A DNA stretch of 64,000 bases. Origin: Methylococcus capsulatus. Lineage in GTDB: Bacteria > Pseudomonadota > Gammaproteobacteria > Methylococcales > Methylococcaceae. How positions within the stretch are numbered: position 1 is the stretch's first letter; each line of letters starts with the position of its first letter. The notes beneath the pieces are model-generated. The model saw only the letters and a list, made by a program, of their open reading frames with translations, had not been told where the DNA came from and did not search any database. The position numbers and the translations under genes were made by a program. The stretch is taken from positions 784,001 to 848,000 of the forward strand of contig NZ_CP104311.1 in assembly GCF_036864975.1 (NCBI RefSeq), in the 5' to 3' direction. Shown here piece by piece: positions 56,014-59,042 of this stretch.

Positions 56014-56568
56014 TCACTCTTTGACGGGTCGCTTTTCCAGCTTGCGCTGTAACGTGCGGCGGTGCATCCCCAGGGCACGTGCTGCTGCCGAAATATTGCC
56101 ATCGTGCTCGACCAGGATCTTCTGCAAATGCTCCCATTCGAGCCGTTTGACCGAAAGCGGTTTTTCCTTGATTTCGACCGAGGCATCGCCCTCGTCCTTG
56201 TGCAGGGCTGCCAGGATCTCGTCCGTGTCAGCCGGCTTGGTGAGATAGTGGGTAGCCCCCAGCTTGATGGCTTCGACGGCCGTCGCGATGCTGGCAAATC
56301 CCGTCAGGACGACGATACGGGTATTGGAATCCAATTCGTGTAGACGCTTGACCAGGGTCAGCCCCGACTCATGACCGATCCGTAGATCGATGACGGCGTA
56401 TTCCGGCTCGATTCGCGCGGCCAGATCGAGGCCCGTTTCCACGTCGTTGGCGACATGCACGGTGTAATTGCGCCGCTCCAAGGCCTGTCGCAGCACCTCG
56501 CAATAGGTGGGATCGTCGTCCACCAGGAGCAGATGGGGGCTCTCGTTCTTCTCTTCGTGCGTGCTCAT
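56014..56568 (-). CDS. regA: Response regulator of the RegA/PrrA/ActR type
   Basis: RegA (184 residues) is the DNA-binding partner of RegB. The receiver has acidic residues at 17-19 (LLVDDDP) and phospho-acceptor Asp61 (AVIDLRIGHESGL). The C-terminal helix-turn-helix GNISAAARALGMHRRTLQRK is the near-invariant Fis-like RegA motif. It overlaps regB by 4 bp. In proteobacteria it controls respiration, photosynthesis and carbon or nitrogen fixation by redox state. Targets here may include the pmoC promoter. Confidence 0.93.
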   Translation of the reverse strand: MSTHEEKNESPHLLLVDDDPTYCEVLRQALERRNYTVHVANDVETGLDLAARIEPEYAVIDLRIGHESGLTLVKRLHELDSNTRIVVLTGFASIATAVEAIKLGATHYLTKPADTDEILAALHKDEGDASVEIKEKPLSVKRLEWEHLQKILVEHDGNISAAARALGMHRRTLQRKLEKRPVKE

Positions 56569-57926
56569 GTCGATGATGGCATCAGGGGTAGAACAATGCG
56601 GGTTCGGGTGCCGCCTTGCATCCGGGCAGACATGCTGATGACGCCCCCCAGGCGTTCGATGGTAGAGAAGGCCAAGAACAGGCCGACACCCAGGCCGTGA
56701 TCCTTGGTCGTGACAGGTGACTTGCCGAGCTGCTGACTGAGTTCGGGCGCCACTCCGGGCCCATGGTCTATGACGTCCAGTGTCACGCGTTCCGCGGTCC
56801 AGCGCGCCTCGACTTGGATGCCTTCAGGAGACACGTCCGCAGCGTTGTTGATGATGTTGACCAACGCATGGGTCAGACTGCGCTCGGCAATGATCGATGG
56901 GATCGGCCGGGTGCCGTTGCGGTAATAGTCGAGTGGCGTCGGGAGGCTTTGCTGCTTCCAGTCGTCGATGACGGCATCGAGATAGTCGGGCAACGGCATG
57001 ACGTGACCGCTCTCTGCCCGCCCTTCGCCCGCGGAAGCAGACATCACGGCAAGAGCGTTCTTACAGCGCTTGACCTGCTCGCGGAGTATCTGCATCTTCC
57101 CCTGGAGATCGTCGCGCTGCTCAGCCTCGAACTCCTGCTCCAGCTCGCTGATCAGGATGGCCATGGTACCCAACGGCGTCCCCATCTCGTGGGCGGCGCC
57201 GGCAGCGAGTGTTCCTAGTGCGATGACGCGCTCATTTCTCAAGCTCTGTTCCCGGACCTCGGCGAGCTTGCGCTCCCGTTCCCGCAGATTTTCCGCCATT
57301 TCCGCGACGAAATAAGCCACCAAAGCCGCGCTGAAGACGAACCCGAACCACATGCCGAACGCGTGGAGCTGCACATGGTGCTCCTCGATGACCGCATGCA
57401 GATGGGCATGCTGGGGATCGATCATGAACGCATGAGCCGGAAGGGGAGGCGTCAACGTTTCAGGATTGAGCGCCGGGAGCGGCTGGTAATAACCGATCAG
57501 GATCGTATAGCAGCCGGAGGCGAGGATGACAAGATGCCAGGTGAATGCGCGTGACAGCACTGTCGCGGCGATGATGAGAGGAAGCAGGAAAAACCAGGCG
57601 ATGGGATTGTTGGCCCCGCCGGTGAAATAAAGGATCAGAGCGATGGCGAAGACGTCTTCCGTGAGCTGTATGAACAGGTCGATCTGCGTGGTCGGTTCCG
57701 TATCCGACAGCTTGAGCCAGGTCCACCAGTTGAATATCGACTGGATCGTCACGATCCCCCATAGCGGCGCCTGGCGCAAAGGAATTTCGAGACCATAGAC
57801 ACTGAACAGGATCATGAAGGCCTGAGCGCCGATCATCAGATTACGGAGAACGAACAACCATTGGAGATTCTTGCGGTTGGTATTGTCCGAATCCGACGGG
57901 ATAGGGATGTTCATGGAATCGCTCAT
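56565..57926 (-). CDS. regB: Redox sensor histidine kinase RegB/PrrB
   Basis: RegB (453 residues) has about six membrane helices (28-210), the quinone-linked motif GGANNP at 103-108, a histidine-rich loop near 173-189, phospho-His246 in AAGAAHEMGTPLGTM and the redox-type Cys288 in VKRCKNAL. The C-terminal ATPase (NIINNAADVSPEG, GLGVGLFLAFSTIERLGG) is intact. It forms the RegBA pair with a 4-bp overlap. The start MSDSMNIPIPSD has a poor ribosome site; Met5 is an alternative. A RegA-like box lies 39 bp upstream. Confidence 0.93.
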   Translation of the reverse strand: MSDSMNIPIPSDSDNTNRKNLQWLFVLRNLMIGAQAFMILFSVYGLEIPLRQAPLWGIVTIQSIFNWWTWLKLSDTEPTTQIDLFIQLTEDVFAIALILYFTGGANNPIAWFFLLPLIIAATVLSRAFTWHLVILASGCYTILIGYYQPLPALNPETLTPPLPAHAFMIDPQHAHLHAVIEEHHVQLHAFGMWFGFVFSAALVAYFVAEMAENLRERERKLAEVREQSLRNERVIALGTLAAGAAHEMGTPLGTMAILISELEQEFEAEQRDDLQGKMQILREQVKRCKNALAVMSASAGEGRAESGHVMPLPDYLDAVIDDWKQQSLPTPLDYYRNGTRPIPSIIAERSLTHALVNIINNAADVSPEGIQVEARWTAERVTLDVIDHGPGVAPELSQQLGKSPVTTKDHGLGVGLFLAFSTIERLGGVISMSARMQGGTRTRIVLPLMPSST

Positions 57927-57964
57927 ACGCCTATCTTACTTTTAGGAGAGACGAGCAGGATATC

Positions 57965-57981
57965 TGCGGCAATTTGCCACA
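57965..57981. promoter_or_regulatory. RegA/RegR-like box upstream of regB
   Basis: TGCGGCAATTTGCCACA shares 15 of 17 positions with the pmoC box. It lies 39 bp upstream of the regB start, where it could mediate autoregulation. Confidence 0.55.
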
Positions 57982-58084
57982 GCGGATGAAGCGGGCTGGC
58001 AACTGGCGTTTCGATCATGGGCGGATGAACGTGCGGCCCGACCAAAGGATTTCAGACTGCCCCGAAGCATGACTTGACAAACGG

Positions 58085-58101
58085 TGCGACATCCTGCCAC
58101 G
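58085..58101. promoter_or_regulatory. Second RegA-like box in tandem
   Basis: TGCGACATCCTGCCACG keeps the GCGAC-N5-GCCAC pattern and is directly adjacent (15-bp step) to the stronger box at 58100. Confidence 0.4.
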
Positions 58102-58116
58102 CGACAATTTGTCACA
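58100..58116. promoter_or_regulatory. Third RegA-like box, next to the candidate small RNA promoter
   Basis: CGCGACAATTTGTCACA contains the palindrome GACAATTTGTC and ends 1 bp before the possible -35 (TTCACG, 58118-58123) of the small RNA below. Confidence 0.5.
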
Positions 58117-58117
58117 T

Positions 58118-58145
58118 TCACGTCACAGCTGTGGTTTGATAACCT
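58118..58145 (+). promoter_or_regulatory. Possible promoter of the candidate small RNA
   Basis: TTCACG (58118-58123), 16 bp, TAACCT (58140-58145). Both elements match the sigma70 consensus only in part; TGATAA at 58137-58142 is an alternative -10. Dependence on the adjacent RegA-like boxes would fit the weak elements. Confidence 0.35.
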
Positions 58146-58149
58146 AAAG

Positions 58150-58246
58150 CTGTCATCGAGACTACCTCCCTCGAGTTGACGTGCCGCACGGTAGTGCGAG
58201 CGACTCCTCCTCTTTCGACGCAGGGCTGATCCCCCTGCGTTTTGTT
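58150..58246 (+). ncRNA. Candidate small RNA with CCUCC anti-Shine-Dalgarno motifs
   Basis: No plus-strand gene precedes the terminator at 58218, yet the preceding 70 nt fold neatly. Stem TCGAG/CTCGA (58156-58160, 58170-58174) displays ACTACCTCC in its loop. A second stem CGCAC/GTGCG (58185-58198) follows, then single-stranded CTCCTCCTC (58204-58212), then the terminator. CCUCC in loops and single strands is typical of regulators that pair with ribosome sites. Start estimated near 58150. Expression is not shown. Confidence 0.5.
58218..58246 (+). terminator. Rho-independent terminator without an upstream protein gene
   Basis: ACGCAGGG (58218-58225), 7-nt loop, CCCTGCGT (58233-58240), then TTTGTTT. 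The T run is on the plus strand only, so it does not serve the minus-strand M48 gene. Confidence 0.75.
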
Positions 58247-58253
58247 TACTCCC

Positions 58254-59042
58254 TTAACCCAGCCTGACCCCGTCACACTGCGGCCGACGCCCTTTTGCAG
58301 CCGCCTGGCGCTGTAAATCGAGCGCATGGGGCATCCGCTTTGCCAGATCCTGGATGCGGGTGGCATGAGAAGGATGGGTGGACAGAAATTCGATCGGCTG
58401 GCCGCCTCCTGCACTTTCCATGTTGTTCCACAACTCGATGCTCTGGCGCGGATCGAAACCGGCGCGCGCCATGAGATCCAGTCCGAGCAGATCCGCTTCG
58501 CTTTCCTGGGTACGGCTATAGGGCATCAGGATGCCGTACTGCGCCCCGAGTCCCAGCAGCCCCATCAGCGTCTTGCCGGAGGCGGAAGCGGGATCGGCCA
58601 GCGCCTGCATGATGTTCAGTCCCTGCTGGACGGCAACCTGTTGAGACAAACGCTCGTTGGCATGACGGGAAAGCACGTGGGCGACCTCATGGGCCAGTAC
58701 CGTCGCCAACTGATCCTGGTTGCGGGCGATACGGAGCATTCCGGTATGGACGCCGATCTTGCCACCGGGCAGGGCGAAGGCATTGGGACTGTCCTGCCTG
58801 AACAGCGCGACGTCCCAGCTTCCGCCGACGTCCAGCGTCACCGCGTCGGCGACACAGCGCACATAATCGTTGACTTGTCGGTCCGGCTCGACCGGCACCT
58901 CACGCTTCAAGGCGGCGAATGACTGATCGCCCAGCATCGTCATTTGGCTGTCCGGCAACAGCATCAGCTGGCTGCGCCCCAAGGGAGAAGTGGCACAGGC
59001 ACTCGCGGCGAGGCCGAGGAGCAGTACGACAGCATTCTTCAT
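58254..59042 (-). CDS. M48-family metalloprotease lipoprotein (LoiP/YcaL-like)
   Basis: The 262-residue protein has a lipoprotein signal (LAASAC, Cys16), the zinc motif HEVAH in VLAHEVAHVLSRHANE and the third ligand in ESEADLLGLDLMARAGFDP. This is a periplasmic or outer-membrane M48C protease likely involved in envelope quality control. C-terminal STHPSHATRIQDL is typical. It ends 8 bp after the small-RNA terminator in convergent orientation. Confidence 0.9.
   Translation of the reverse strand: MKNAVVLLLGLAASACATSPLGRSQLMLLPDSQMTMLGDQSFAALKREVPVEPDRQVNDYVRCVADAVTLDVGGSWDVALFRQDSPNAFALPGGKIGVHTGMLRIARNQDQLATVLAHEVAHVLSRHANERLSQQVAVQQGLNIMQALADPASASGKTLMGLLGLGAQYGILMPYSRTQESEADLLGLDLMARAGFDPRQSIELWNNMESAGGGQPIEFLSTHPSHATRIQDLAKRMPHALDLQRQAAAKGRRPQCDGVRLG

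Follow-up and report, generated by a model that had tools for sequence, protein, structure and literature searches.

A predicted anti-Shine-Dalgarno small RNA behind a RegA-like promoter box in Methylococcus capsulatus and other Methylococcales

Introduction

The CcsR RNAs are members of the cuckoo family of RNAs and have anti-Shine-Dalgarno (anti-SD) motifs. In Rhodobacter sphaeroides, CcsR1-4 form a cluster of homologous small RNAs that, according to the available text, share a transcript with the DUF1127 gene ccaF1, driven by an RpoHI/RpoHII promoter, and are excised by RNase E; the title of a work referenced there connects them with C1 metabolism and with pyruvate dehydrogenase (PMC10253847). 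Two other known systems are relevant here. The alphaproteobacterial RNA alpha-r14, or NfeR1, of Sinorhizobium meliloti is described as having three hairpins with variable stems and the unpaired anti-SD motif CCUCCUCCC in all three; LsrB activates it and NtrC represses it, and its anti-SD tracts were shown experimentally to silence mRNAs at the ribosome site, including that of ntrB, which ties it to a two-component system (PMC10746234). NmsRA and NmsRB of Neisseria meningitidis are sibling copies, described as having three stem-loops, one anti-SD tract that is single-stranded (the SL1-SL2 interval) and one in a loop (that of SL2); they are tied to the stringent response, and silencing of mRNAs by the anti-SD tracts of NmsRA was also shown experimentally (PMC5362039).

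The RegB/RegA two-component system has been studied in a type I methanotroph, Methylomonas sp. DH-1. Methanol-induced redox stress activates RegB/RegA in this strain, sensing of quinone-pool redox by RegB has been proposed, and RegA binds and activates feo; the effects of RegA on tbdr and tonB appear to be indirect, without appreciable binding at their promoters, and the available text leaves the intermediary unexplained (PMC13274454). The terms "sRNA" and "small RNA" are absent from the main text of that paper. An earlier Methylomonas DH-1 transcriptome names, in its available part, only rnpB, ssrS, ffs and tmRNA (PMC6373157), the accessible portion of a genome note on Methylocaldum 14B lists one unnamed Rfam small RNA, and EcpR1 and alpha-r45 appear in the transcription map of Methylosinus sporium, a type II methanotroph, with RegA unmentioned in the text available (PMC12403871). 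Among the matches listed in the open-licence literature, none was a regulatory small RNA of the RegA-box anti-SD sort in gammaproteobacterial methanotrophs.

Here we describe a predicted small RNA gene of Methylococcus capsulatus. The class is a known one and the family is new, with three unusual traits: a RegA-like promoter, a spread across the order, and folds that change while promoter and tract stay constant. With NfeR1 it shares three hairpins, unpaired anti-SD motifs, variable stems, a proposed action at the ribosome site and a tie to a two-component system. Unlike NfeR1, it has the motifs CUCCUCCUC and ACCUCC, its promoter has a RegA-like box and its carriers are Methylococcales; CCUCCUCCC is not unpaired in each of the three hairpins, as the loops of the second hairpin (H2) and of the terminator have no motif. 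Like the NmsR RNAs, it has three stem-loops, one single-stranded and one looped tract, and sibling copies, but one tract occupies the loop of the first hairpin (H1), the other separates H2 from the terminator, and the promoter has a RegA-like box. It shares with CcsR1-4 the occurrence of homologous clusters. However, the methanotroph copies that were read each have their own box, -10 element and terminator, and in place of a DUF1127 gene on the same transcript the neighbours are a divergent regB and a convergent M48 peptidase gene.

Results and Discussion

The predicted small RNA gene and its fold

A sequence-only reading had proposed a small RNA at 58150-58246 of the window, the whole 64,000-nucleotide stretch of DNA that was analysed. 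The features of the region, in window coordinates, are the following.

56014..56568, minus strand: regA, response regulator with a Fis-type HTH (Response_reg, HTH_8)
56565..57926, minus strand: sensor histidine kinase gene, taken to be regB from its place beside regA; HATPase_c over cut-off, HisKA below cut-off; transcribed away from the small RNA
57966..57981, plus strand: further box of the RegA-like kind, GCGGCAATTTGCCACA, on the side of regB and 40 nt upstream of its start; found in 6/6 genus loci
58086..58100, plus strand: degenerate RegA-like box GCGACATCCTGCCAC, abutting the next; identical in 5/6 genus copies, the sixth (L008) differing
58101..58118, plus strand: RegA-like box GCGACAATTTGTCACATT
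58137..58145, plus strand: extended -10 element TGATAACCT, hexamer TAACCT at 58140-58145
58150..58246, plus strand: predicted small RNA of about 95-97 nt; 5' end placed from the -10 element (58150-58152), 3' end from the terminator
58152..58180, plus strand: hairpin H1, 58152-58160 pairing with 58170-58180; loop 58161-58169 (ACUACCUCC) with anti-SD CCUCC at 58165-58169
58183..58201, plus strand: hairpin H2 (GCCGCAC GGUA GUGCGAGC), 58183-58189 pairing with 58194-58201; compensatory changes keep the pairs
58202..58216, plus strand: linker, single-stranded in the predicted fold, with the main anti-SD tract CUCCUCCUC at 58204-58212
58217..58247, plus strand: intrinsic terminator GACGCAGGG-CTGATCC-CCCTGCGTT with T-rich tail; stem 58217-58241, 9 pairs; TTTTGTTT (58240-58247) begins within the stem
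58254..59042, minus strand: convergent M48 peptidase gene, the other flank of the intergenic gap

The earlier proposal started from a terminator with no protein gene upstream, and this was borne out: only one plus-strand open reading frame of at least 40 amino acids was found in the stretch from regB to the terminator, a frame of 42 aa (57861-57989), and it overlaps the regB start. The hairpin with a CCUCC loop, the second hairpin and the single-stranded CUCCUCCUC tract were all found where that reading had placed them, and its neighbours are regB and RegA-like boxes (57966 and 58101), as it had said. The open tract between H2 and the terminator hairpin reads GACUCCUCCUCUUUC. Both anti-SD tracts are almost entirely unpaired in the predicted fold, with an unpaired probability of at least 0.99 across the H1 loop, at least 0.97 across 58205-58212 and 0.67 at 58204. 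The 141 nt from 58120 to 58260 fold at -46.9 kcal/mol, against a mean of -33.3 for shuffled sequences (z -3.9; 0/200 shuffles as low).

The terminator scan is weak evidence on its own, as it returned 5 sites in 4 kb where shuffled sequence led us to expect 3.4, and its sigma-70 pattern found no promoter match at the small RNA locus. The window has 17 terminator-like sites, and 2 of them, those of the 58150-58246 gene and of 41007 (minus strand), have an anti-SD-like pyrimidine motif within 26 nt before the stem; the background is 4.5% of random window 26-mers containing such a motif. The region had no match in Rfam 15 at E<=5 (58050-58300), the whole window gave only a tRNA (41253) at gathering score, and seven relative loci gave one tRNA only. 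A BLAST search of the region against plasmid records returned no match.

The intergenic position, and a T tail that stops about 7 nt short of the end of the M48 peptidase gene, would also fit an element of an adjacent gene (leader, attenuator or terminator), with no separate RNA. This explanation is very improbable: there is no gene directly downstream on the plus strand, because regB is divergent and the downstream gene convergent; the opposite strand has no T run past the stem; and tandem copies elsewhere in the order each have their own box and terminator, as do the four copies about 190 nt apart at locus L087 (genome G269). Hairpin loops with GGA are a signature of CsrA binding, and the minus strand contains GGGAGG and GAGGAGGAG, so that the opposite strand might be read as a protein-binding RNA, a CsrA/RsmA sponge. 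The box, the -10 element and the T-run terminator all belong to the plus strand, in other families too, and on the minus strand the stem is followed by no T run, which leaves this idea with hardly any probability. The same slight chance is given to a coding or dual-function RNA. A 28-codon frame does run from GTG 58181 through the terminator, but the sequence upstream of this GTG (TCCCTCGAGTTGAC) has no Shine-Dalgarno sequence and other copies have indels in the region of the frame.

An exposed tract, its own promoter, an intrinsic terminator and no evident open reading frame, the traits of a trans-acting anti-SD small RNA, are all predicted here. As judged from sequence, 58150-58246 (plus strand) is almost certainly a real, free-standing small RNA gene.

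A putative activator-dependent promoter

The segment GCGACAATTTGTCAC at 58101 fits the RegA palindrome GCGAC-N5-GTCGC. In the available part of a ChIP study of Rhodobacter capsulatus RegA, the peak over ccoN lists GCGACCGTTCGTCGC, and several other peaks list poorer sites (PMC5359404). The label "RegA-like" is putative; it rests on resemblance to Rhodobacter sites, on position at regB and on co-occurrence with RegA. When the 3.43-Mb single-contig genome was scanned for GCGRCAATTTGYCRCA with no more than one mismatch, three sites were found, all in the window, at 57966 (regB side), 58101 (small RNA) and 734 (pmoC promoter), while the reversed control pattern had none.

At a 17-nt spacing, a -35 hexamer would overlap the 3' end of the box; the sequence there reads TTCACG, which is no -35 consensus, and no conserved -35 was seen among box-driven promoters. 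The spacing between box and -10 element was measured in 73 unique boxes with an anti-SD motif downstream. The best -10-like hexamer lies 39 nt past the box start (counted from 0) in 50 of them and 38 nt past it in 7, with 16 scattered. If transcription starts at 58150-58152, the box is centred at about -43. Class II activation has this geometry, with a box near -43, an extended -10 and no -35. The layout is that of a predicted activator-dependent promoter, with a RegA-like box at a fixed distance from an extended -10 element.

A RegA-like box (TGCGTCAAATTGCCGCA) is also present at 733-749 on the minus strand of the window, 8 nt upstream of a promoter-like sequence (TTGACA-16-TAGACT) before pmoC, which starts at 554 (minus strand) and whose product is of the AmoC family. 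Boxes of the TGCGTCAAAATGYCGC type occur at two such places each in the genomes G000 (one in the TGCGTCAAATTGCCGCA form), G001, G002, G003 and G005, and at one such place, the only one fetched, in G004.

Conservation in the genus, the order and beyond

The sequence-only reading had made conservation of the stem-loops and CCUCC motifs in relatives a test of its proposal, and the locus passed. It is present in each of the six genus genomes, where a 221-base query aligned over 171-221 bases at 91-100% identity, and compensatory changes are found in H2 and the terminator stem. A DNA search of 61 relatives (E<=0.1) had matches in 31; most of the weak ones comprise the box alone, and by eye most of these are followed, some 100 nt further on, by a pyrimidine anti-SD tract with a terminator.

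A model covering box to terminator (R1), built from 24 sequences, found a match in 293 of the order's 311 genomes (E<=1e-3), and in about 254, by hand count, the match reached E<=1e-6. Matched genomes had from 1 to 8 matches (the maximum in G205), and 220 of 228 high-quality genomes were matched. In the 39 weakest genomes of the order (best E above 1e-6), the R1 match may be to the box only. In a sample of the class, 21 of 274 genomes had a match; 3 of these belong to the order, leaving 18 of 271 outside it, 1 of them at 1e-6. All off-order matches scored at most 38.3 bits, save one of 49.5 bits in G343. Seventeen off-order loci were inspected by eye as possible family members. Because most of them were a box and a -10 element before ordinary-looking genes, R1 matches under about 40 bits were not treated as small RNAs. 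The G343 locus (L066), from another family of the class, looks like a small RNA: a hairpin RNA and a terminator come after the box, without the UCCUCC tract.

Since R1 includes the promoter box, two further tests were used. The first was a model of the RNA only (R2: H2, tract and terminator; 30 sequences). It gave 42 matches in 31 of the 61 relatives, 41 of them at R1 places; the remaining one (G013:C151) has no box and was taken as chance. The 30 relatives that R2 missed include all 12 of families f6-f8, 17 of f1 and the RegA-less genome G060. This agreement is one of consistency more than of independence, because the training set of R2 consisted of box-linked sequences, and many of these came from the same genomes.

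The second test followed the boxes. Among the fetched loci, boxes with a -10 element led to a terminator and a pyrimidine anti-SD motif in 79 of 93 cases within the order and in 0 of 16 outside it; 79/93 is not a genome-wide rate, because the loci of the order were largely picked for matching. The 14 failing boxes of the order include those of L108, L110 (two) and L111, all with visible long terminators. Two others of the 14, at L021 (1501) and L028 (about 1597-1598), both in f6, are RegA-like boxes that precede TonB-dependent receptor genes, with Plug and beta-barrel domains over cut-off. A strict T-run terminator finder skipped many boxes, genus copies included, and served structure reading only.

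A pattern of box, 69-99 bases and TCCTYCT was scanned against 84,980 named genomes. It found 57 stretches, mostly Methylococcales by title; eight were from Nitrosomonas or Nitrosospira, one was from Desulfobulbaceae, and the titles of a few others said no more than proteobacteria or Gammaproteobacteria. Taken together, similar predicted small RNAs are found behind the same promoter box in most of the examined genomes of the order Methylococcales.

Covarying stems and several folds

Pairing was evaluated on a sequence-only alignment of 24 sequences (A3). In H2 and the terminator stem, 90.7% of cells pair and 7 of 13 pairs have changed on both sides; the covariation score was 0.342, compared with a shuffle mean of 0.153 (0/500 as high), and sliding the partner lowered it to at most 0.120. 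H1 was left out of the count because it is too variable to align. Alignments A3 and A4 were used; A2 misaligned H1 and some tracts.

The TCCTCC of the tract is nearly invariant in 30 sequences. Around it the conserved core is UCCUCCUCUU, or AUAUCCUUCUC in other types, and the hairpins vary while the tract stays. Forty further regions were read for subtypes. Three fold types were distinguished in f8: CAACUC...UUUCCUCCUCGGAAA...GAGUU followed by UAUAUCCUUCUC; UAACUUUUGAGGCUC...AAAGUUGCGUUAUAUCCUUCC; and CACUCUU...GCUCCUCUAGGC...AGAGUCUUAUAUCCUUCUC. Box, -10 element and terminator are present in most of the f8 subtypes. Several predicted folds have promoter, tract and terminator in common, and the RNA-only model R2 unites only part of them (31/61 relatives). 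The folds may descend from one RNA or may reuse one promoter.

Co-occurrence with RegB/RegA

A RegA orthologue (E<=1e-40) was found in 288 of the 311 genomes of the order; G042, G048 and G310 were taken as RegA-less, as a separate search found no orthologue in them. Among the 228 high-quality genomes, 217 have both RegA and an R1 match, 5 have neither (G032, G042, G060, G309, G310), 3 have R1 without RegA (G089, G255, G266) and 3 have RegA without R1 (G034, G063, G133), giving a Fisher p of 6e-7 with ancestry ignored. For all 311 genomes the corresponding counts are 277, 7, 16 and 11 (p 9e-5, again ignoring shared ancestry, as in the case of G060, G309 and G310, which are one genus). The 16 RegA-less genomes with R1, out of 23 lacking RegA, are mostly incomplete; near complete are G089 (98%), G255 (94%) and G145 (100%, with 7% contamination). 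Loss of just the box may explain part of the co-occurrence, because R1 includes the box and the RegA-less G060 keeps a boxless UCCUCCUCUU and terminator. The latter, in f5 (L012 1326-1389, also L227), look as if the RNA had outlived its regulator. G269, the genome with four tandem copies, is 77% complete and no RegA orthologue was found in it.

Among the matches listed, an R1 match lies within 3.5 kb of regA in 45 of 66 compared genomes; in 15 all listed matches are on other contigs, and in 6 they are all far off. The promoter layout, this proximity and the co-occurrence suggest that the small RNA is very probably under RegA control.

Proposed mechanism and targets

We consider a RegB/RegA-controlled, trans-acting small RNA that masks ribosome-binding sites to be the best reading, and a likely one. 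RegB is a sensor of the redox state of the quinone pool, which it would read here as well. Phosphorylated RegA would then bind the box at about -43 and act as an activator of the promoter that has an extended -10 and no -35 consensus. Transcription would yield a free-standing RNA of about 97 nt that ends at its own terminator. The exposed C/U-rich tracts in the H1 loop and in the linker between H2 and the terminator would base-pair with mRNA targets at their Shine-Dalgarno sequences, perhaps assisted by Hfq, and the pairing would block translation. Anti-SD tracts, a free-standing unit and an hfq gene in the genome (102.8 bits) point to masking of ribosome sites as the likely mode of action, by which the small RNA probably turns down chosen proteins.

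The site before pmoC had been put forward as a pairing partner. Pairing is possible, with UACCUCC of the H1 loop facing GGAGGUA (7 pairs by reading); it is not evidence of targeting, because any strong ribosome site would serve. A whole-length RNAduplex value for the small RNA and the pmoC start (-44.2 kcal/mol) was set aside, as it ignores the structure that both molecules have of their own. The genome shows no enrichment of the exact 10-mer complement of the tract, AGAGGAGGAG: it has 10 sites (one being the small RNA gene) compared with 17 for the reversed control, and none of the 10 is a convincing ribosome site.

A core (UCCUCCUCUU or AUAUCCUUCUC) that holds little beyond the anti-SD, a constant tract among variable hairpins, and up to 8 R1 matches per genome (G205) could alternatively suit a general ribosome competitor, an RNA that copies the 16S anti-SD and, under over-reduction of the quinone pool, would cover Shine-Dalgarno sequences at large instead of those of a few targets. 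This is unlikely, although less so than the three alternatives considered above. Such a competitor would require very high RNA levels, the stems are conserved as well as the tract, and the characterised anti-SD small RNAs NfeR1 and NmsRA have defined targets, as described in the available texts.

Implications for methanotrophs

Beyond masking by a single RegA-controlled small RNA, a wider proposal can be made, to which we give even chances. The Methylococcales would have a dedicated post-transcriptional redox arm, a superfamily of anti-SD small RNAs that are activated by RegA and present in multiple copies, of which one usually lies by regBA. Promoter and anti-SD tract would be retained in its members, and the folds would have diverged to suit different mRNAs. 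RegA would set both pmo transcription and the small RNA layer, because a RegA-like box lies just upstream of pmoC promoters, and a similar set would exist in Nitrosospira. If this is true, the superfamily would explain RegA effects without promoter binding, such as those on tbdr and tonB in Methylomonas DH-1. How RegA affects these two without appreciable binding at their promoters, as the available text reports (PMC13274454), becomes testable. A redox-linked small RNA family in most genomes of the order would be an added regulatory layer in methane consumers used for methane bioconversion.

Box-driven, small-RNA-like units of another fold were observed at seven loci of the ammonia-oxidising Nitrosospira (L136, L162, L167, L176, L241, L247 and L250). 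They consist of an AACUUCU...GAAGUU hairpin, a UUUUCCUUCUA-like tract and a terminator, score 35.9-44.5 bits with R1, and occur at three places in the L136 genome.
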